A stretch of 32,710 nucleotides of DNA from an uncultured Clostridia bacterium (GTDB taxonomy: Bacteria; Bacillota; Clostridia; Christensenellales; UBA1750), in NCBI GenBank assembly GCA_944381265.1, contig CALWKN010000214.1, forward strand, positions 1 through 32,710, in the 5' to 3' direction. How positions within the stretch are numbered: the stretch's first letter is position 1; the number at the start of each line of letters is the position of its first letter. A program made the translations under genes and the position numbers. Below are positions 331 through 25,895 of this stretch, one piece after another. The notes under the pieces are model-generated. The model had not been told where the DNA came from, searched no databases, and saw only the letters and a program-made list of their open reading frames with translations.

Positions 331-3300
331 ATGAAACGTGGTCTTGCGATCCTGTGCAGCCTGGCGCTGCTGTGCGCGGCGCTGCTGACGGGGATGCCCA
401 CAGCGCGGGCGGCCGTGGACGGCACGGTGCGCGTGTGGCTGGAATCCATGAACGAGTACGGGCCGATCCAGTCCGTTTCCATCACATTGGACGGTTCCTA
501 TTCCATCCCCGCCGCGCCCGAGGTGGCCCTCTCCACCCGCGGCACCTACTACATCGAGAACGTCGGCGGCACGCTCATGCTCTCCGGCTCCGGCCTGGAC
601 GGCCAGGTGGCCCTGGGAGAAAAGTTCACCATCAAGCAGCACAAGAACGACGACGGCACGATCGGCACCATCTCCCTGTACAACAACCGCTACGGCAACC
701 GCTCCTACCGGGGCGATATGCTCTTTGAGGTCTACAACGGGGCGCTGCGCCTGATCAACTACGTCTACATCGAGGACTATCTCTACGGCGTTCTGGCAGG
801 CGAATTGTCCAACACCTTCCCCCTTGAGACGCTCAAGGCCCAGGCCATCATCGCCCGCTCCTACGTCTACAACCGCATGCTGACGAACGAGCCGAACTAC
901 GAGATCGGCGACACCTCCAGCGACCAGGTCTACAAGGGCTACAATTCCGCCAATACCAACATCATCCGCGCCGTGGACGAGACGGCGGGCATACTGCTCA
1001 AATACGGCTCCAAGTACGTCAACGCCTATTTCGGCGCCTCCAACGGCGGCCAGGTGGAGCTGCCGGGCAACGCCTGGTCCTCCTCCTCGTCGGAGAAGTG
1101 CTACGTCATGAAGGATGACCCCTACGACGTGCGCAACCCCTCCTCGCGCTCGGTGACCTACACATTCACCACCAACCCCGACTCGCTGGACACCTCCTTC
1201 TACGTCCTCATCCAGGACAAGGTGCAGCAGGAGCTGGGCTACTACCCCAACATCGCCGGCATACAGGCGGTGTGGCTGAGCGACCCGGTGGAGACGGACG
1301 AGCGCTCCCGCGGCATCAGCCGCAACTACCAGACGATGAACATGACCGTCACGGTGCGCGAGACCGGCTGGAGCGGCGACGACACCAACGTCTACGACCC
1401 AACGGACCACGGCTACAGCGACGGCCCCACGGAGACCGTGGACATACGCATCGATCTGCATAGTGAACTTAAATGGATCCTCTTTAGCGCCGACTCCGAC
1501 CTGCGCTTCTTCTCCCTTGAGGAGGACAACGGCTACTACTACCTGACGCTGGCCCGCTACGGCCACGGCGTGGGCATGTCCCAGCGCGGCGCGCAGCAGA
1601 TGGCCAACGAGGGCTACGACTACCAGGACATCATCCACTTCTACTTTGACGACGTGGAGCTGCCCAAGCTCGACTTCACCCGCGAAGAGCTCACCACCAA
1701 CGTGCCCATCAGCGACACGCCCATTGCCACCGGCACGGTCACGGCTTCCAGCCTCACCGTGCGCGCCGACGCCTCGACCTCGGCCTCCAAGCTCGGATCC
1801 CTGTCCCGCGGCGCGGTGGTCAACGTCTACGCGGATCTGGGCGGCTGGCTGTGCATCGTCTACAACGGCTCCATCGGCTATATCAGCGCCGATTACGTCG
1901 AGCTTTCCGGCTACAACGGCGGCATCTGGGAGACGGAGTCGCCGGACGGCGGCACGAGCCTCTACCGCGCGCAGGTGACGCTCTCTTCCGCCTCCTCGAC
2001 GCTGAAGCTGCGCCAGGAGGGCTCTTCCTCCGGCAAGGTGCTCAGCTACATGTCCCACGGCACCATCGTCGAGGTGCTCTCCGACGGCGGCGAGTGGGTG
2101 CGCGTGCGCACGCCCGGCGGCACGGAGGGCTACTGCTCGGCGCAGTACCTGACCCGCCTGGACGACGGCGGCGCGTCCACCTCTACGCCCACCCCCGCGC
2201 CGAGCGAGGACGTCGTGGCCACGGGCGAGATCACGGGCGGCAGCGTCAACGTGCGCTCCGGCCCCTCCACCTCCGCCAGCGTCCTTGGCTCGGTGAAAAA
2301 AGGCGAGAGCGTGGAGATCCTCTCCCAGAACAACGGCTTTTATAAGATCGTCTACGGCGGCGGCACGGCCTACGTCTCCGCCTCCTATGTGCGCGTGACC
2401 GGCTCTGTGGCAACGCCGACGCCGGAACCCACGCCCACGCCCGACCCCAACGCGGTCACGGCCTATGGCGAGATCACCGGATCCAGCGTCAACGTGCGCT
2501 CCGGCGCCTCCACCTCCGCCGACGTCCTTGGCTCGGTGAAAAAAGGCGATAGCGTGGAGATCATCGCCCAAAACGGAGACTTCTACAAGATCGTCTACGG
2601 CGGCGGCACGGCCTACGTCTCCGCCTCCTATGTGCGCATAACGGACACGGTGGAGACTTCCACGCCGACGCCTGCGCCCACGCATGACTCGGGCGCGGAC
2701 CTGGAGGAGGGCGAGGCCATCGTCTCCGAGTCCGGCACGGCGCTCATGGGCGACCCCAGCGGCAGCGTGATCTACTCCTACCTCACCCGCGGCGACGTGG
2801 TGGAGATCCTGGAGCAGGACGGCGCCTACTGCCTGGTGCGCGCCGAGAACGGCGAGACGGGCTATGTGCGGTCCTCCGCCCTGCAGACAAAGACCGAGGA
2901 CGAAGAGCCGGAGGAGAGCGAGGAGCCGGAGGGGACACAGACGCGCCAGGGCACGATCCGCCTCTCCTCTTCCTCCTCCAACCTCAATCTGCGCCAGGGC
3001 CCCAGCACCAGCACCGAAGTCCTGGCCTCCCTGCGGCACGGGCAGAGCGTCACGGTCACGGGCGAGAGCGGCGACTGGTACGCCATCGAGGTCGGCGGCT
3101 ATTCCGGCTATGTGATGAAGACCTACGTCACGTTTGACAGCGCGCAGGGCGAGGACGAGGGCGGCTCTTCGCAGCTCTTCCCGGCCAAGATCCGCCTTGC
3201 GCACGAGGACTCCACCGTCAACGTCCGCTCCGGCGCCGGCACGAACTACAGCAAGATCGGCTCGCTGAGCAACGGCGCGGCGGTGAACGTCGTGGCGCAG

Positions 3301-3597
3301 AACGGCGACTGGTACCGCATCGAGTACGGCAACGGCTACGGCTATGTGATGAAGACCTATGTGCAGCTGGTGGCGGACGGCTCGTCCTCCTCCGATTCCG
3401 ACGGCGAGCGCCAGACCGCAACGACCACCACGGCCGTGAACCTGCGCTCCAAGGGCTCGACCAGCGGGGAAAAGCTCGGCACCTATCCCAAGGGCACGCG
3501 GGTGACGGTGCTGGAGCGCGGCTCTTCCTGGAGCCGGGTGGACATCTCCGGCAAGGAAGGCTACATGAAGAACGACTACCTGGATTTTGACGACTGA
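331..3597 (+). CDS. Secreted SpoIID/LytB-domain protein with about eight SH3 repeats
   Basis: The 1088-residue product has a signal peptide (about 1-27, cleavage after ARA). A SpoIID/LytB domain follows to about residue 455, containing LYGVLAGEL...FPLETLKAQA near 151-170 and HGVGMSQRGAQQMA near 412-425. In SpoIID the Glu of the GE(L/M) motif is catalytic for lytic transglycosylation of stem-peptide-free glycan. About eight bacterial SH3 repeats follow, starting near residues 465, 545, 626, 709, 796, 871, 950 and 1027. They are joined by Pro/Thr- or Glu-rich linkers; the fifth is the most divergent. The role is probably peptidoglycan cleavage or remodelling outside the membrane, with the SH3 repeats binding the wall. 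The start is set by AGGAGG (about 316-321). Sporulation SpoIID proteins are much shorter, so this is probably a vegetative relative rather than true SpoIID. Confidence 0.85.
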   Translation: MKRGLAILCSLALLCAALLTGMPTARAAVDGTVRVWLESMNEYGPIQSVSITLDGSYSIPAAPEVALSTRGTYYIENVGGTLMLSGSGLDGQVALGEKFTIKQHKNDDGTIGTISLYNNRYGNRSYRGDMLFEVYNGALRLINYVYIEDYLYGVLAGELSNTFPLETLKAQAIIARSYVYNRMLTNEPNYEIGDTSSDQVYKGYNSANTNIIRAVDETAGILLKYGSKYVNAYFGASNGGQVELPGNAWSSSSSEKCYVMKDDPYDVRNPSSRSVTYTFTTNPDSLDTSFYVLIQDKVQQELGYYPNIAGIQAVWLSDPVETDERSRGISRNYQTMNMTVTVRETGWSGDDTNVYDPTDHGYSDGPTETVDIRIDLHSELKWILFSADSDLRFFSLEEDNGYYYLTLARYGHGVGMSQRGAQQMANEGYDYQDIIHFYFDDVELPKLDFTREELTTNVPISDTPIATGTVTASSLTVRADASTSASKLGSLSRGAVVNVYADLGGWLCIVYNGSIGYISADYVELSGYNGGIWETESPDGGTSLYRAQVTLSSASSTLKLRQEGSSSGKVLSYMSHGTIVEVLSDGGEWVRVRTPGGTEGYCSAQYLTRLDDGGASTSTPTPAPSEDVVATGEITGGSVNVRSGPSTSASVLGSVKKGESVEILSQNNGFYKIVYGGGTAYVSASYVRVTGSVATPTPEPTPTPDPNAVTAYGEITGSSVNVRSGASTSADVLGSVKKGDSVEIIAQNGDFYKIVYGGGTAYVSASYVRITDTVETSTPTPAPTHDSGADLEEGEAIVSESGTALMGDPSGSVIYSYLTRGDVVEILEQDGAYCLVRAENGETGYVRSSALQTKTEDEEPEESEEPEGTQTRQGTIRLSSSSSNLNLRQGPSTSTEVLASLRHGQSVTVTGESGDWYAIEVGGYSGYVMKTYVTFDSAQGEDEGGSSQLFPAKIRLAHEDSTVNVRSGAGTNYSKIGSLSNGAAVNVVAQNGDWYRIEYGNGYGYVMKTYVQLVADGSSSSDSDGERQTATTTTAVNLRSKGSTSGEKLGTYPKGTRVTVLERGSSWSRVDISGKEGYMKNDYLDFDD
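2242..2637 (+). repeat. Tandem duplication of one SH3-coding unit, 243-bp period
   Basis: Blocks at 2242, 2281 and 2344 recur 243 bases (81 codons) downstream at 2485, 2524 and 2587. The last block is identical over 51 bases (2344-2394 and 2587-2637). The similarity at silent positions indicates a recent in-frame duplication of the third SH3 repeat to give the fourth, or gene conversion between them. Confidence 0.85.
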
Positions 3598-8343: not shown

Positions 8344-8356
8344 GGAGCGTGTAAAG

Positions 8357-8441
8357 ACTTCCCAAGGACTGGCGGTTGAAACGTGGGGCACCACGGTGGA
8401 CTTGGGAAGAAGGACCCGTTTTTTCGCCGGCCGCCTGGGCA
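8357..8441 (+). promoter_or_regulatory. ZTP riboswitch (pfl motif) aptamer
   Basis: P1 is a perfect 9-bp helix CTTCCCAAG (8358-8366) with CTTGGGAAG (8401-8409). Inside it are the invariant GACTGGCG (8367-8374) and a P2 hairpin CGTGG-GGCA-CCACG (8382-8395). After a linker comes the second conserved domain GCCGCCTGGGCA (8430-8441). This order and these conserved bases match the ZTP/pfl riboswitch, which senses the purine intermediate AICAR and its triphosphate ZTP, signals of 10-formyl-tetrahydrofolate shortage. It lies in the leader of pflB, whose enzyme makes formate, the one-carbon donor for that cofactor, so ligand should switch the gene on. Confidence 0.92.
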
Positions 8442-8473
8442 GAGAGTTGTCCCGGGCGGCCGCGTTGTTTTTT
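8429..8473 (+). terminator. Riboswitch-controlled terminator before pflB
   Basis: GGCCGCCTGGGCA (8429-8441) pairs with 8448-8461, giving a stem of about 12-13 bp with one G-U pair and a small bulge, followed by TTGTTTTTT (8465-8473). The 5' arm is the conserved second domain of the ZTP aptamer, so ligand-bound folding and terminator formation exclude each other. Confidence 0.9.
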
Positions 8474-8509
8474 GGGCGTCCGGACGCGTGAAACGAGGAG
8501 GTTGTGAAC

Positions 8510-10750
8510 ATGGATCATCGGTGGAACGGTTTTGTCGGCGGCGCATGGACGGAGACGATCGACGTGCGCGACTTCATCCAGCGCAACTACACGCCTTACG
8601 AGGGCGGCGCGGACTTCCTCTGCGGCGCCACCGCCCGCACAAAGGCGCTCAACGAAAAGTACCTTGCGCTGCGCAAGGAGGAGCTGGAAAAGGGCGGCGT
8701 GCTGGACATAGACGTCGAGCACGTCTCCTCGCTCCTCAACTACGGCCCCGGGTACCTGGACAAGGACAACGAGCTCATCGTCGGCCTGCAGACGGAAAAG
8801 CCGCTCTGCCGCTCGGTCAACCCCTTCGGCGGCATGCGCATGGTGCTCTCCGCCTGCCGCGCCTACGGCTACGAGCTCTCCGACACCGTCAAGGAAGAGT
8901 TCAAGTACCGCACCACGCACAACGACGGCGTCTTTCGCGTCTACACCGAGCAGATGCGCAAGGCCCGCCACACCGGCATCATCACCGGCCTTCCCGACGC
9001 CTACGGCCGCGGCCGCATCATCGGCGACTACCGCCGCGTCGCGCTCTACGGCGTGGACCGGCTCATCGCGGAAAAGCAGAAGGACTTTGCCGGCCTGGGC
9101 CGCCGGCCGATGGAAGATGAGAACATCCGCCTCATGGAGGAGGTCAACCGCCAGATCGACTTCCTCGGCCGCTTAAAGAAGATGGCGGAGATGTACGGCT
9201 GCGACATCTCCTGTCCGGCGGCAAACGCCCGCGAGGCCATACAGTGGACCTACTTTGCCTACCTTGCCGCCATCAAGGAGCAGAACGGCGCGGCCATGTC
9301 CCTGGGCCGCACGAGCACGTTCCTGGACATCTACATCGAGCGCGACCTGCGCGCGGGGGTCCTCACCGAGGAGCAGGCCCAGGAGCTGATGGACCAGTTC
9401 GTGCTGAAACTGCGCATGTCGCGCCAGCTGCGCACGCCGGAGTACAACGAGCTCTTCGCCGGCGACCCCAACTGGGTGACCGAGTCCGTCGGCGGCATGG
9501 GCGAGGACGGGCGGACACTCGTCACCAAGAACAGCTACCGCGTGCTCAACACGCTCTACACGCTCCTGCCCGCGCCGGAGCCGAACCTGACGGTGCTCTG
9601 GAGCAAGGACCTGCCGGAGAACTTCCAGCGCTTCTGCGCCAAGGTCTCCATCGACACCGACAGCATACAGTACGAGAACGACGACCTGATGCGCCCGCGC
9701 TTTGGCGACGACTACGCCATCGCCTGCTGCGTCTCCGCCGCGCGCATCGGCAAGGAGATGCAGTTCTTCGGCGCGCGCTGCAATTTTGCCAAGCTCCTGC
9801 TGCTGGCGCTCAACGGCGGCCGCGACGAAAAGAGCGGCGACCAGGTCGGCCCCGAGGAGCCGGTCATCGGGCCGGGGCCGCTGGAGTATGCCGAGGTCAA
9901 GGCGCGCTTTGACCGCTACATGGCCTGGATCGCCGACCTGTACGTCAACACCATGAACGTCATCCACTATATGCACGACAAGTACGCCTACGAGAAGATC
10001 CAGATGGCGCTGCACGACACGGACGTGCACCGCTACATGTCCTTTGGCATGGCGGGGCTGTCGGTGACGGCGGACTCCCTGTCGGCGATCCGCTACGCGC
10101 GCGTGACGCCCATCTTCGACGAGCGCGGCCTGGTGACGGACTTCACCGTGGAGGGCGAGTTCCCCTGCTACGGCAACGACGACGACCGCGCCGACGACAT
10201 CGCCAAGGCCCTGTGCCACGACTTCATCACGGAACTGCGCAAGCACAAGACCTACCGCAACGCCGAGCACACGCTCTCGATCTTGACCATCACCTCCAAC
10301 GTGGTCTACGGCAAGAAGACCGGCAACACCCCGGACGGCCGCAGAGCCGGCGCGCCCTTCGCCCCCGGCGCCAACCCCATGCACGGCCGCGAGAAAAACG
10401 GCGCCCTGGCCTCGCTCAACTCCGTCTCCAAGCTCTCTTACGACGACTGCCGCGACGGCATCTCCAACACCTTCACCATCACCCCCGGCACTTTGGGCGG
10501 AAGCGAGCGGGAGCGCGTGGACAACCTCGTCGCCCTCCTCTCCGGCTACTTTGCCCTGGACGAGACGCACGCCGCGCACCACCTCAACGTCAACGTCCTC
10601 AACCGCGAGACGCTGCTGGATGCCATGGACCACCCGGAGAACTACCCCAAGCTCACCATCCGCGTCTCCGGCTACGCGGTGAACTTCGTGCGCCTCTCCC
10701 GCGCGCAGCAGCTGGAGGTGCTCTCCCGCACCTTCCACGAGGCGATGTAA
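8510..10750 (+). CDS. pflB: Pyruvate formate-lyase (formate acetyltransferase)
   Basis: A 746-residue glycyl-radical enzyme converting pyruvate and CoA to acetyl-CoA and formate in anaerobic cytoplasm. The adjacent catalytic cysteines of true PFL are C406-C407 (IACCVS), and the radical glycine is G721 in RVSGYAVNF near the C-terminus. The double Cys and the RVSGYAV sequence separate it from diol dehydratases and other glycyl-radical enzymes. GAGGAGG (8495-8501) fits the ATG at 8510 better than the in-frame GTG at 8504. The gene sits behind a ZTP riboswitch and one base before its activase. Formate from this enzyme can feed 10-formyl-tetrahydrofolate and purine synthesis. Confidence 0.97.
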
Positions 10751-10751
10751 G

Positions 10752-11444
10752 ATGGGGCGCGTGCATTCCATCGAGACGCTGGGCGCGCTGGACGGGCCGG
10801 GTCTGCGCATGGTGGTCTTCCTGCAGGGCTGCCCCCTGCGCTGCCGCTACTGCCACAACCCGGACACCTGGTGCGCGGGCGGCGGGCAGGAGCTCTCCGA
10901 GGCGGACATCGCCGCGCGCGCCGCAAGGTACAAGCGCTTTTTCGGCAAGACGGGCGGCGTCACATTCAGCGGCGGGGAACCGCTTTTGCAGGCGGACTTC
11001 GTCTTAAAGTGCGTGCGGGCGCTGCATGAAGAAGGCATACACTGCGCGCTGGACACGGGCGCGGGGCTCTGGAACGAGGCCTCCGCGCGCCTCTTTGACG
11101 CGGCGGACCTGGTGATACTGGACGTAAAGCACAGCGACCCGGCGGGCTTTCGCCGCCTGACGGGCGGGGACATCGGGACGCTGGAGCAGGCCCTTGCCCA
11201 CCTGCGCGCGGCGCAAAAGCCGACCTGGGTGCGCCAGGTGATCGTGGAGGGCTACACGCAGGACGAAGGGCAGGTGCGGGCCCTAAAGGAAAAGATCCGC
11301 GGCCTGAATCTCGAGCGGCTGGAGCTATTGCCCTACCACACGCTGGGCGTGCACAAGTGGAAGGCGCTCGGCCTGCCCTACGCGCTGGAGGGGGTCGCCC
11401 CGCCGGACGAAACGGTCATGGCGCGCCTGCGGGCGCTGCTGTAA
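10752..11444 (+). CDS. pflA: Pyruvate formate-lyase activating enzyme (radical SAM)
   Basis: A 230-residue radical SAM protein with the CX3CX2C cluster motif at C27, C31 and C34 (CPLRCRYC), followed by HNPDTW and the SAM-binding FSGGEPLL segment. It uses a 4Fe-4S cluster and S-adenosylmethionine to place the glycyl radical on PflB. Length is typical of the short PflA class without extra ferredoxin domains. It begins one base after the pflB stop, so translation is probably coupled. No promoter or terminator separates it from the next genes. Confidence 0.95.
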   Translation: MGRVHSIETLGALDGPGLRMVVFLQGCPLRCRYCHNPDTWCAGGGQELSEADIAARAARYKRFFGKTGGVTFSGGEPLLQADFVLKCVRALHEEGIHCALDTGAGLWNEASARLFDAADLVILDVKHSDPAGFRRLTGGDIGTLEQALAHLRAAQKPTWVRQVIVEGYTQDEGQVRALKEKIRGLNLERLELLPYHTLGVHKWKALGLPYALEGVAPPDETVMARLRALL

Positions 11445-20150: not shown

Positions 20151-20170
20151 GGGAGACGGATAAGAAGCGT

Positions 20171-20841
<671 letters not shown>

Positions 20842-20879
20842 CTTTGCCCCTTCCCCCGTGAACAAAAGGAGAATGCACC

Positions 20880-21812
20880 ATGGCTTTTAAACACAAGGAC
20901 CTGCTCTCCCTGCGCGACGTGGAGCGGGAAGAGATCGAGATGATCCTCTCCACCGCCGCCTCCATGCGGCCCCTGCTCGACAGCCCGACGAAGAAGACCG
21001 CGCACCTGCAGGGCAAGTCGATCGTCACGCTCTTTTACGAAAACTCCACCCGCACCCGCATGAGCTTTGAACTGGCCAGCAAGTACATGGGCGCGGCGGC
21101 GGCCAACATCTCCGCCTCCGCCTCCTCCGTGCAGAAGGGCGAGACGCTGCTGGACACCGGGCGCACGCTCGACCGCATGGGCACGGACGTCATCATCATC
21201 CGCCACCCGATGTCCGGCGCGCCGCACCTGCTGGCCCAGCACGTCAACGCCGCCGTCATCAACGCCGGCGACGGCATCAACGAGCACCCCACCCAGGCGC
21301 TGCTGGATATGTTCACCATCAAGCGCCACAAGGGGCATCTGGACGGGCTGAAGGTGGCCATCGTCGGCGACGTGCTGCACTCGCGCGTGGCGCGCTCCAA
21401 CGTCTTCGGCCTGCACACCATGGGCGCGGAGGTCGTGCTCTGCGCGCCGCCCACGCTCATGCCGGCGCAGATGGAGGAGCTGGGCGTAAAGACCTACACC
21501 CGCGTCGAGGAAGCCGTCGAGGGCGCGGACGTGGTCATGGGCCTGCGCATCCAGCGCGAGCGCCAGGAGGAGGGCAACTTCCCCTCCCTGCGCGAGTACG
21601 CCGACTTCTTCGGCATCAACGAGGCGCGCCTGAAGTACGCCAAGCCCGACGCCCTGATCATGCACCCCGGCCCCATCAACCGCGGGGTGGAGATCACCAG
21701 CGACGCGGCGGACTCCGACGCCTCCGTCATCAACGAACAGGTCACAAGCGGCGTGGCGGTGCGCATGGCGCTGCTCTACCTGCTGACCAGAAAGGGTGTG
21801 CAAAACGCATGA
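20880..21812 (+). CDS. pyrB: Aspartate carbamoyltransferase catalytic subunit
   Basis: A 310-residue enzyme joining carbamoyl phosphate and aspartate, the first committed step of pyrimidine synthesis. The carbamoyl-phosphate motif [11 protein letters not shown] begins at about residue 54 and HPTQALLDM is near 136; the LRIQRER aspartate-site segment lies near 222. No regulatory subunit pyrI follows, as in Bacillus, so control is probably through PyrR only. AAAAGGAG precedes the ATG. The stop overlaps the pyrC start (ATGA). Confidence 0.97.
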
Positions 21813-23086
21813 AGCTGCTCGTAAAGAATGGGATCGTCCCCGGCCGCGGCGCCTGTGACGTGCTGATTTCGGACGGGATCATCGAGGAAGTCGCGCCGGG
21901 GATCTCCGCCTCCGACGCCGAAGTCGTGGACGCGCACGGCCTCTACGTCCTGCCCGGCATGGTGGACCTGCACTGCCACCTGCGCGACCCCGGATTGGAG
22001 TACAAGGAGGACATCGTCTCCGGCACGCGCGCCGCGGCCGCCGGCGGCTTTACCTCCGTCTGCTGCATGGCCAATACCGAGCCTGTCAACGACAACGCGG
22101 TCGTCACTTCCTATATCATCCACAAGGCCGAGACCGAGGGCAGCGGCGTACACGTCTACCCCATCGGCGCGGTGTCCAAGGGCCTCAAAGGCGAGAACAT
22201 GGCCGAGATCGGCGAGATGGCCCGCGCCGGCATCGTCGCCATCTCCGACGACGGCAAGCCCGTGATGAACGCCCAGCTCATGCGCCGGGCCATGGAGTAC
22301 GGCGCGGCCTTTGGCATGACGGTGTTCGACCACTGCGAGGACATCCACCTGGTCAACAAGGGCGTGATGAACGAGGGCTACAACTCCACGCTCTTCGGCC
22401 TGCGCGGCATCACCCGCGCCGCCGAGGAGGTGCAGATCGCCCGCGACGCGATCCTTGCCGAGACGCTGGACCTGCCCATCCACATCTGCCACGTCTCCAC
22501 CGCCGGCGGCGTGCGCATCATCCGGGAGGCCAAGGCCCGCGGCGTTAAGATCACCGCCGAGACCGCGCCCCACTATCTGGCCGGCACCGACGACATGGTC
22601 GGCTCCTACAACGCCGTGACCAAGGTCAACCCGCCCCTGCGCCTGGAGGAGGACCAGGAGGCGCTGATCGAGGGCCTGCGCGACGGCACGATCGACGCCA
22701 TCGCCACCGACCACGCCCCGCACCACCGCGACGAGAAGGAGGTCGAGTACAACCTCGCCCTCTCCGGCATCTCCGGCTTTGAGACGGCCTTTGCCCTTGG
22801 CATGGAGACGCTGGTCCACGGCCACCACATGCCGCTGGAGGACTACGTCAAGCTCGTGAGCACCAACCCGGCCAGGATCCTCAAGAAGAACTGCGGCGAG
22901 ATCGCCCCCGGCAGGGACGCCGACTTCCTGCTCGCCGACCCCAACGAGGAGTGGTGCATCGACAAGAACAAGTTCCTCTCCAAGGGCAAGAACACCCCCT
23001 TCCACGGCACCATGGTACACGGCCGCGTCAAGGCCACGTTCGTCGGCGGCAAGTGCATCTACCGCGACGGGCAGGACGAAAAGTAA
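21809..23086 (+). CDS. pyrC: Dihydroorotase (class I)
   Basis: A 425-residue amidohydrolase closing carbamoyl aspartate to dihydroorotate. The metal ligands H55 and H57 are in [10 protein letters not shown], the ANTEPVND substrate motif is near 91, the DHCED and HICHVST segments carry further ligands, and ATDHAPHH holds the catalytic Asp. This pattern is the long class I form of Gram-positive bacteria rather than the E. coli form. It overlaps pyrB by four bases. Carbamoyl-phosphate synthase genes (carAB), which often follow, are not in the window. Confidence 0.97.
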
Positions 23087-23099
23087 GGAGGAGCAGAGC

Positions 23100-24005
23100 A
23101 TGAAACTCGCCATCGACGCGCTGATCGAGGGGATCGAGCGCCTGGGCAACCCCACGGCCGTGGGCCTGGACACGCAGCTTGCGCACCTGCCGGAAGGGTT
23201 TGCCGGCCGCGTGCAGAGCTTTGCCGACGCCGCGGACGCCATCCTTCGCTACAACAAGGCCATCGTCGACGCGCTGTGCGGCGTGGTCCCCTGCGCCAAG
23301 GTGCAGATCGCCTATTACGAGATGTACGGCGTGCCCGGCATGCAGGCCTTCCGCGAGACGCTCGCCTACGCCAAGGAAAAGGGCATGGTCGTCATCGCCG
23401 ACGCCAAGCGCAATGACATCGGCTCCACCGCCGGGGCCTACGCCAACGCCTTCCTCGGGGAGACGCCTTTGGGCGAAACGGCGGACAGCGCCTTCCCCGC
23501 GGACTTTGTCACCGTCAACGCCTACCTCGGCTGGGACGGCGTGGAGCCCTTCGTAAAGGCCTCCGCCGTGCGCGGCGGCGGGATCTTTGCGCTGGTCAAG
23601 ACCTCCAATCCCTCCGGCGTGCAGCTGCAGGACCTGAAGATCGGCGAGCGCACGGTCTATGAGGTCATGGGCGACCTCGTCTCCGAGTGGGGCAAGGACT
23701 CCATCGGCGAAAACGGCTATTCCTCCATCGGCGCGGTGGTGGGCGCGACGTATCCGGAGCAGGGCGCGTCCCTGCGCCGGCGCCTACCCCACACCTTCTT
23801 CCTCGTGCCCGGCTACGGCGCGCAGGGCGCCACCGGCAAGGACCTGCGCGGCTGCTTCGACGCGCAGGGGCGCGGCGCGGTGGTCAACGCCTCCCGCTCG
23901 ATCCTGACCGCCTGGCGCAAGCAGCCGGGCGTGGACTTTGCGCAGGCCGCCTATAACGAGGCCGTGCGCATGCGGGAGGACATCATGGAGGGCATCCGCG
24001 CATGA
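23100..24005 (+). CDS. pyrF: Orotidine-5'-phosphate decarboxylase (type 2)
   Basis: A 301-residue decarboxylase producing UMP from OMP. The catalytic set is in DAKRNDIG starting at D101, and the longer length with the PGYGAQGATGKDL phosphate-binding segment marks the type 2 family. AAGGAGGAG lies before the ATG at 23100. The final codons overlap the pyrK start (ATGA). The enzyme that supplies OMP, PyrE, is not encoded in the window. Confidence 0.95.
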   Translation: MKLAIDALIEGIERLGNPTAVGLDTQLAHLPEGFAGRVQSFADAADAILRYNKAIVDALCGVVPCAKVQIAYYEMYGVPGMQAFRETLAYAKEKGMVVIADAKRNDIGSTAGAYANAFLGETPLGETADSAFPADFVTVNAYLGWDGVEPFVKASAVRGGGIFALVKTSNPSGVQLQDLKIGERTVYEVMGDLVSEWGKDSIGENGYSSIGAVVGATYPEQGASLRRRLPHTFFLVPGYGAQGATGKDLRGCFDAQGRGAVVNASRSILTAWRKQPGVDFAQAAYNEAVRMREDIMEGIRA

Positions 24006-24775
24006 AGAGATTGACGGCAAAGGTCCTCTCCTGCGCGCCGCTGAACGCGGAGATGGGCCTGCTCACGCTCGCCCTTCCGGCCGGGGCGGAGGCCGCGGTC
24101 CCCGGGCAGTTTGCCCACATCGCGGTGCCCGGCGACCGCGCGCACCTGCTGCGCCGCCCCATCTCCCTCTATTCCGTGCACGACGGCATACTGGAGCTTG
24201 GCATCGCGGCAAAGGGCGAGGGCACAAGGCGCATCCTTCAGGCAAAGCCAGGCGAAGAGATCGACCTGCTCTACCCCCTGGGCCGCGGGTTTGACAAGGG
24301 GGCGATGCGGCGCATCGCCTTCGTCGGCGGCGGCATAGGCGTCGCGCCCCTGCGCTTTGCCATGGAGCGCTTCGCCGACGCGCAGTGCCGCGCGGTCTTC
24401 GGCTTCCGCAGCCGCGATCTGCTCTACGCGGTGGAGGAATGCGAAAAGACGGGCGCGAGCGTCACCGTCTGCACGGACGACGGCAGCGCCGGCTTCCACG
24501 GCCTGGTCACCGGCCCCTTGGAGGAGATGCTGCGCCGCGGCGAGGTGGACGGCGTCATGGCCTGCGGCCCGACGCCCATGCTGCGCGCGGTGCAGGCCCT
24601 CGCCCTGCGCTGCGGGGTCCCGGCGCAGCTCTCCCTGGAGGAGCACATGGGCTGCGGCCTTGGCGCGTGCCTAACCTGCAACTGCAAGGTCAAGGCGAAG
24701 GACGGGGAATTCGGCTACAAGCGCGTCTGCGCCGACGGCCCGGTGTTCCCGGCAGAGGAGGTCGTGTTCGGATGA
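24002..24775 (+). CDS. pyrK: Dihydroorotate dehydrogenase B electron-transfer subunit
   Basis: A 257-residue FAD and 2Fe-2S protein that passes electrons from dihydroorotate dehydrogenase to NAD+. The FAD motif RRPISLYSV lies near 56-64 and the nucleotide motif GGGIGVAPL near 108. The iron-sulfur cysteines are C218, C223, C226 and C243. The order with pyrD and the four-base overlaps at both ends indicate equal production of the two subunits. This NAD-linked form suits an anaerobe. Confidence 0.96.
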   Translation: MKRLTAKVLSCAPLNAEMGLLTLALPAGAEAAVPGQFAHIAVPGDRAHLLRRPISLYSVHDGILELGIAAKGEGTRRILQAKPGEEIDLLYPLGRGFDKGAMRRIAFVGGGIGVAPLRFAMERFADAQCRAVFGFRSRDLLYAVEECEKTGASVTVCTDDGSAGFHGLVTGPLEEMLRRGEVDGVMACGPTPMLRAVQALALRCGVPAQLSLEEHMGCGLGACLTCNCKVKAKDGEFGYKRVCADGPVFPAEEVVFG

Positions 24776-25680
24776 ATATGGGCGTGAATCTTTGCGGCGT
24801 GGAGCTGAAGAACCCGGTCATCGCCGCCTCCGGCACCTTCGGCTTTGGCCGGGAGTACGACGAGTTCTACGACGTGGGGAGCCTTGGCGGCATCTCGGTC
24901 AAGGGCCTGACGCGCCTGCCGCGCCTGGGCAACCCGCCCCACCGCATCACCGAGACGCCCTCCGGCGTGCTCAACAGCGTCGGCCTGCAGAACCCGGGCG
25001 TGGAGGCCTTCATCGAGAAGGACCTGCCCTGGCTGCTGGAAAAGGGCGCGGTGGTGGTGGCCAACGCCGCCGGCAGCACGGAGGACGACTACTGCTATAT
25101 GGCGGAGCGCCTCTCCAAGACCGGCATCCACATCCTTGAAATGAACATCTCCTGCCCCAACGTCAAGGAGGGCGGCGTGGCCTTTGGCACGAGGCCGGAG
25201 TCCGTCTACCACATCACCAAGGCCGTGCGCGCCCACTGCGCAAAGCCCCTGATGGTCAAGCTCTCGCCCAACGTCGCGGACATAGCCGAGGTGGCGCGGG
25301 CGGCGCAGGAGGGCGGCGCGGACGCGATCTCGCTGATCAACACGCTCACCGGCATGGCGGTGGACGTGCGCACCCGCCGCCCGGTGCTGGCCAACGTCGT
25401 GGGCGGGCTCTCCGGCCCGGCGGTGCGCCCGGTGGCGCTGCGCATGTGCTACCAGGCGGCAGAGGCCGTGTCCATTCCGGTGGTGGGCATGGGCGGCATC
25501 GAGACGGGCGAGGACGCGGCGGCCTTCCTGCTGGTGGGCTGCACGGCGGTGCAGGTGGGCACGGCCAATCTGCACAACCCCTACGCCTGCCCGGAGGTCG
25601 TGCGCGGGCTGGAAGCGGTCTGCGCGCAGCAGGGCGTGCAGGACGTGCGCGAGCTCATCGGCGCGCTGCGCCTGGACTAA
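24772..25680 (+). CDS. pyrD: Dihydroorotate dehydrogenase B catalytic subunit
   Basis: A 302-residue FMN enzyme oxidising dihydroorotate to orotate. The N-terminal VELKNPVIAASGTFG and the NSVGLQNPGVEAF segment are typical. The catalytic cysteine is C128 in MNISCPNVKEGG, which marks the class 1B enzyme that works with PyrK. GGIETGEDAAAFLLVG near the end holds the FMN phosphate site. AGAGGAGG (24754-24761) supports the ATG at 24772 overlapping the pyrK stop; a second ATG two codons later is possible. Confidence 0.96.
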   Translation: MNMGVNLCGVELKNPVIAASGTFGFGREYDEFYDVGSLGGISVKGLTRLPRLGNPPHRITETPSGVLNSVGLQNPGVEAFIEKDLPWLLEKGAVVVANAAGSTEDDYCYMAERLSKTGIHILEMNISCPNVKEGGVAFGTRPESVYHITKAVRAHCAKPLMVKLSPNVADIAEVARAAQEGGADAISLINTLTGMAVDVRTRRPVLANVVGGLSGPAVRPVALRMCYQAAEAVSIPVVGMGGIETGEDAAAFLLVGCTAVQVGTANLHNPYACPEVVRGLEAVCAQQGVQDVRELIGALRLD

Positions 25681-25693
25681 GGAGGGGCGCGCG

Positions 25694-25846
25694 ATGGACA
25701 TCGGCATCATCGGCGGGGCGGACGGCCCCACGCAGGTCTACGTCTCCGCAAGTCCGGCAAGTTGGGTCTGGCTGCTGCTCCTCCTTGCCGCGGCCGCGGC
25801 AGGCGCGCTGCTCTTTGTGATCTGGAAAAAGAAGCGGAAACGGTAA
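25694..25846 (+). CDS. 50-residue membrane protein with OadB-like GGADGPT motif
   Basis: The product is 50 residues. Residues 3-13 read IGIIGGADGPT, followed by QVYVSAS; a membrane helix spans about 24-44 and the end is strongly basic (KKKRKR, 45-50). That motif is the hallmark of the sodium-pump decarboxylase beta subunit (OadB/GcdB/MmdB), where its Asp is essential for Na+ translocation. OadB itself is a polytopic protein of around 400 residues, so this is not a working pump. It begins 13 bases after pyrD with GGAGGGG as ribosome site and ends 2 bases before the operon terminator, so it is co-transcribed with pyr genes. The basic tail suggests N-out, C-in topology. I know of small clostridial proteins of this look but no function. 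Confidence 0.75.
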   Translation: MDIGIIGGADGPTQVYVSASPASWVWLLLLLAAAAAGALLFVIWKKKRKR

Positions 25847-25848
25847 GG

Positions 25849-25895
25849 CGAACCCCCTTTGCAGAAAAATGCAAAGGGGGTTCGGCGTTATTTTT
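25849..25895 (+). terminator. Terminator of the pyr operon
   Basis: A 15-bp perfect stem (25849-25863 with 25870-25884), GAAAAA loop, then TTATTTTT (25888-25895). The T-run overlaps the 3' end of the convergent rqcH gene. On the minus strand no T-run follows, so it may end rqcH transcripts less well. Confidence 0.93.

Follow-up and report, generated by a model that had tools for sequence, protein, structure and literature searches.

A GGADGPT block in a mini-protein gene behind pyrD, possibly a short recognition motif resembling the hairpin-1 tip of OadB

A mini-protein gene closing the pyr operon

What is a signature peptide of the Na+-pumping decarboxylase beta subunit (OadB) doing in a 50-residue protein encoded directly behind a pyrimidine gene? 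The window analyzed here, the whole stretch of 32,710 nucleotides, contains an open reading frame at 25694-25846 on the forward strand whose product, MDIGIIGGADGPTQVYVSASPASWVWLLLLLAAAAAGALLFVIWKKKRKR, is referred to below as the mini. An earlier sequence-only reading had described this ORF as a genuine small gene ending the pyr operon. Its existence as described was confirmed, and the claim is upheld by its own ribosome site, the 13-base gap separating it from pyrD (which ends at 25680), the terminator that follows it and the retention of the ORF in genome G002. The features of the locus are as follows.

20168..20271, + strand: PyrR-binding RNA element preceding pyrR (RF00515, 44.8 bits, E 1e-4; sub-threshold, the gathering score being 54)
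20239..25680, + strand: pyrR-pyrB-pyrC-pyrF-pyrK-pyrD operon, gene identities confirmed by Pfam
24772..25680, + strand: pyrD, the gene upstream of the mini (Pfam DHO_dh, 5.5e-78)
25679..25685, + strand: ribosome-binding site AAGGAGG, overlapping the pyrD stop, seen in the sequence
25694..25846, + strand: mini-protein ORF, 50 aa, stop codon within the coordinates, conserved after pyrD in G002
25700..25747, + strand: block-coding stretch IGIIGGADGPTQVYVS, mini residues 3-18, equivalent to OadB 196-211, with D10 at Asp203
25763..25825, + strand: predicted transmembrane helix, about residues 24-44, from AlphaFold2
25826..25843, + strand: basic tail KKKRKR, from the sequence, expected on the cytoplasmic side by the positive-inside rule (presumed topology)
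25849..25895, + strand: intrinsic terminator, 15-bp stem and T-rich run, directly 3' of the mini stop

The AGGAGG of the mini ORF lies 8 bases upstream of its ATG, and the stem-loop behind its stop has a folding energy of -32.1 kcal/mol (z -6.4) with the T-rich run next to it. The convergent neighbor is NFACT. Third-position G+C is 0.82 in the mini vs. 0.95 in pyrD, G+C-rich in both. Control of the operon by PyrR is plausible, judging from the RNA element. AlphaFold2 models the mini as a helix spanning residues 21-49, with a mean pLDDT of 85-94 across residues 21-50, preceded by a stretch without structure (residues 1-20, pLDDT 55-59).

Elsewhere in the window, a ZMP/ZTP riboswitch (8355-8447; RF01750, 58 bits) was found just upstream of a large ORF (8504-10750) that resembles a glycyl-radical enzyme, followed at 10752-11444 by what appears to be its activase; both names were given by eye. 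Positions 331-3597 encode a 1088-aa exported protein that, likewise judged by eye, resembles a SpoIID-type domain with many SH3-like repeats after it.

A specific link to pyrimidine synthesis, raised by the sequence-only reading, was not supported by comparison with relatives. In G002, a genome of the same genus whose pyrD is 92% identical, a mini with 60% identity occupies the same place after pyrD. G001, also of the genus and with a pyrD 88% identical, has no mini after pyrD and instead carries a terminator-like repeat directly there, and none was found after pyrD in the remaining family genomes with a pyrD match. When 277 genomes of the order were searched with a mini profile, G000 and G002 alone had a pyrD-linked mini. 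Minis built to the same plan (M-D-[IL]-x-[IV]-I-GGAD[GS]PT-...-helix-basic tail) were identified in HGW-Firmicutes-9, G367, G401, and G624; those outside the pyr operon, of the type MDIGIIGGADGPT..-helix-basic tail, adjoin unrelated genes, and in the loci examined no neighboring gene is conserved around them. Given these unrelated neighbors elsewhere and the restriction of the pyrD-linked form to G000 and G002, the pyrimidine link is local and the position behind pyrD lineage-specific. It is thus very improbable that the mini is a dedicated pyrimidine-operon protein, such as a PyrR-regulated ion-binding or regulatory peptide: its place as the last operon gene with its own ribosome site, the PyrR element upstream, and its conservation in G002 would speak for that role, but G001 and more distant relatives have no mini behind pyrD, and minis in other genomes sit next to unrelated genes. 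The single usable pair for the window mini gave a dN/dS of about 1 (dN 0.316, dS 0.330), a value that speaks neither for nor against selection; the comparison is without power in the first 13 codons because no synonymous change occurs there.

Comparison of the mini with OadB and with sorting signals

The identification of IGIIGGADGPT as an OadB motif was borne out. This stretch of the mini matches OadB 196-206, and in an alignment to 6iva_A 196-227 its D10 falls on Asp203, such that the hairpin-1 tip, IGGADGPT, is present. The resemblance exceeds chance by a reversed-pattern control, which returned 2 matches vs. 109 for the motif in 118 genomes. In OadB, Asp203 is a Na+ ligand at the tip of helical hairpin H1, the tip being located at the bottom of the inter-hairpin cavity, and D203A abolishes Na+ binding; Asp203 alone is insufficient, as S382A abolishes Na+ binding too (PMC7274780).

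The mini shares with the OadB/MmdB/GcdB proteins (PF03977, TIGR01109) a SIGIIGGADGPTxI[FY]V block that contains the Asp203 of the H1 tip, but differs from them in nearly everything else. Its single helix ends in a tail that terminates at residue 50, vs. a length of about 400 aa, and the multi-helix scaffold or core domain of OAD_beta and the second hairpin, with Ser382 and Asn412, are absent. The flanks of the block are unrelated, and position +7 is free where OadB has Ala. The Pfam OAD_beta model (PF03977) scores the mini at 22.7 bits over residues 3-35, below its cut-off of 31.6, and the mini falls below the OadB cut-offs in Pfam and NCBIfam alike. Two full-length OadB genes are present elsewhere in the host genome, so the mini is no substitute for one.

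Two other known systems resemble the mini or its relatives in part. LPXTG-type and other C-terminal tripartite sorting signals (TIGR01167 etc.) have a motif, helix and basic tail in the order in which helix-anchored block proteins carry them, the motif of the latter lying 35-50 residues from the C-terminus, and the mini scores 16.6 bits against TIGR01167 (cut-off 15.9), the match covering the helix and tail alone (residues 26-49). Unlike LPXTG or CTERM signals, however, the mini has no LPXTG or family motif before its helix, and the block also occurs after lipobox cysteines and in soluble proteins. The HAAS-domain membrane proteins (PF22564) paired with PadR offer a second likeness, as several block proteins have the order HAAS-helix-block-helix and lie by PadR-like regulators (PadR assigned by eye); here the block is located between two helices, outside the Pfam HAAS family, and the mini has no HAAS domain. 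Since the defining features of OadB and of the sorting signals were both looked for and found absent, the mini is placed in neither.

Occurrence of the block outside OadB

The suggestion of the sequence-only reading that the motif had been reused for another purpose was supported, as the block is widespread and was found in 67 non-OadB proteins. Outside OadB its consensus spans about 17 residues, S-[IV]-[GAS]-[IV]-I-GGADGPT-x-[IV]-[FYIL]-[VIL]-[STA]. After masking of the block the 67 proteins form 33 sequence clusters, some single-member ones being short and possibly related. They comprise 21 lipoproteins, 33 proteins with a membrane helix after the block, and 13 others, soluble ones included. 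Among the kinds represented are lipoproteins with the block just past the lipobox, rhodanese lipoproteins, HAAS-helix-block-helix proteins encoded beside PadR-like genes, helix-block-helix proteins of about 98 aa, proteins of about 260 aa with an ectodomain-block-helix order, proteins with the block at the extreme C-terminus or in a linker, and two soluble families.

Even sampling of 118 Clostridia genomes yielded 109 GGADGPT sites; comparison of two coordinate lists puts 20 of them, in 19 genomes, outside OadB. Across the phylum (179 genomes), the 80 sites read consist of 75 in OadB, three in block proteins, and two chance matches. Most GGADGPT matches in IMG/VR were set aside as chance 7-mers in other frames or GC-rich DNA, and matches were retained only with an upstream hydrophobic context. 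The extended block was found on few viral contigs, which argues against a phage module as its main source. Pfam and NCBIfam model the block solely within OadB. A literature search for GGADGPT and its fragments returned no relevant match, GGADGPT itself occurring in none of 5.39 million papers; the block thus appears to have gone unnamed so far.

Five small helix-block-helix proteins (L085, L103, L127, L078, and L365) share a "KH" on the N-terminal side and, close to their end, a "P[ILV]K", and are possibly one family across several bacterial families.

OadB was present in 19/19 block genomes that are >=90% complete in the first set tested and in 16/16 such genomes of the 118-genome sample, the class sample giving 74/96, figures uncorrected for phylogeny. 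Among the OadB-less genomes of the class sample (n=25), a block was found only in G194, which is 75% complete. This co-occurrence fits an origin from OadB, mimicry of OadB, or both, and would also be compatible with the regulator or assembly partner of a decarboxylase suggested by the sequence-only reading. A variant, GAADGPT, is the signature of a second OadB type and occurs at 53 sites in the 118 genomes; the one site outside OadB is in the block protein of G230, a genome whose only OadB is itself of the GAADGPT type. A strict co-variation of the block with the host's OadB type was considered and rejected: it is suggested by G230 and G233 but broken by G195 and G149, which have GGADGPT blocks although none of their OadB copies belongs to the GGADGPT type.

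Anatomy and conservation of the block

Conservation around GGADGPT extends from -5 to +11 outside OadB and far further on both sides within it. An 8-residue core is near-invariant. Position +7 accepts A, S, Q, T, R, E, and others in the non-OadB proteins, whereas OadB has Ala there almost without exception. No other stretch is as conserved as the block in five unrelated families, where its identity is 70-84% vs. 23-51% in the adjacent, variable linker. The codons are freely synonymous, which indicates selection on the peptide; a DNA- or RNA-level element was ruled out, the codons being fully degenerate. The alternation of hydrophobic residues would be compatible with a hairpin or an extended strand, and AlphaFold2 leaves the block without structure in both the mini and a rhodanese lipoprotein.

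The position of the block relative to the membrane anchor is fixed. The first G lies 9 or 10 residues after the lipobox Cys in 21/21 lipoproteins; the script allowed distances of 7-12, such that the tightness is a result and the rough range is not. In 31/33 of the helix-anchored proteins the chain runs on for 35-50 residues past the block and mostly finishes in a basic tail. The block is also modular, as in one lipoprotein family the homologs in G184, G280, and G320 and a paralog in G202 retain the lipobox and linker without the block. In a plasmid rhodanese homolog the match starts only at residue 43, past the block. On G202:C19 a lipoprotein gene that carries the block and a neighboring one that lacks it lie within about 1.5 kb of each other (L125, L380). 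A strictly extracytoplasmic motif was rejected because two families (7/67 proteins) show no visible signal peptide or helix near the block.

Discussion

The reading we prefer, tentatively and at a probability of roughly 0.4, is that the block is a short linear motif that copies the hairpin-1 tip of OadB and serves as a recognition tag displayed by the mini and by unrelated proteins. It is the shortness of the block, its invariant core, the flexible linker, the fixed anchor distance, and its modular gain and loss that argue for a short linear recognition motif. Under this proposal the mini would be a single-pass membrane peptide with its N-terminus out and its C-terminus in, a topology to which the basic tail alone points, and its role would be to present about 17 residues, SIGIIGGADGPTxIfVS, at the outer membrane surface by means of a flexible tail. 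The tip of the GGADGPT-type pump subunit would thereby have been reused as a tag, most likely read by a membrane-associated factor. The reader might be a membrane protease or transpeptidase that sheds or sorts the proteins, it might be the pump or one of its partners, or it might be some other factor at the surface. That a partner binds or processes the block, and which partner this might be, we infer, and a single extracytoplasmic reader would not cover all block proteins, given the two soluble families. The GGADGPT blocks of G195 and G149, the lack of a conserved neighbor gene in the loci examined, and the dN/dS near 1 of the window pair also count against the recognition-tag reading. A bolder version, in which the ion-binding tip of a primary Na+ pump has been copied into dozens of unrelated lipoproteins, sensors, and minis, and a dedicated membrane partner, possibly the pump itself, reads the tag and couples them to the state or location of the Na+ pump, seems to us doubtful.

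More specific fates for the block can be weighed against the same observations. It could be a processing or shedding signal at which a membrane protease or transpeptidase cuts IGGADGPT near the anchor, freeing ectodomains and, from minis, a short extracellular peptide. The motif-helix-basic tail arrangement at the C-terminus in 31/33 helix-anchored cases, the fixed spacing after the lipobox, and the near-invariant 8-residue core are what such a signal would look like; the soluble families without an export signal do not fit it, and OadB has the same core at a membrane hairpin tip where it is evidently uncut, leaving this reading unlikely. Docking on the OadB pump or an OadB partner through mimicry of hairpin 1, by which block proteins would regulate or join the Na+ pump, is no better placed: the identity with the Asp203 tip, the co-occurrence of block genomes with OadB, and the GAADGPT shared by OadB and block protein in G230 are in its favor, but surface proteins on both sides would have difficulty reaching a tip at the cavity bottom, the match of types is broken by G195 and G149, and no block protein lies beside decarboxylase genes in the loci read.

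The block might instead be a remnant of oadB fragments captured by other genes and now functionless, as the dN/dS of about 1 for the window pair would allow and as is suggested by the helix-block-helix proteins and some HAAS proteins, which are OadB-like beyond the block (OAD_beta 37 bits, residues 18-77; NEAASIGIIGGADGPTSIFVTTTIAP). We regard this as improbable, because conservation peaks in the block in five unrelated families, its limits differ from those in OadB, and its distance from the lipobox is constant in unrelated lipoproteins.

Returning to the recognition-tag reading, the recurrence of the block as a tag in dozens of unrelated proteins of related bacteria points to a recognition motif not described before, and not to a role connected with pyrimidines. 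If real, it would mean that strong selection acts on a single short peptide shared by tens of unrelated proteins from Clostridia and neighboring classes, at fixed distances from the anchor; it would also reveal a new reader and connect rhodanese lipoproteins with HAAS/PadR sensors and orphan micro-proteins. The block also bears on annotation. Pfam OAD_beta scores above its gathering cut-off on proteins that are not pumps, namely a 97-aa membrane protein (L068 1360-1650, 37.0 bits) and a block lipoprotein (L108, 34.6 bits), and such proteins are therefore probably mislabeled as "decarboxylase subunit beta".
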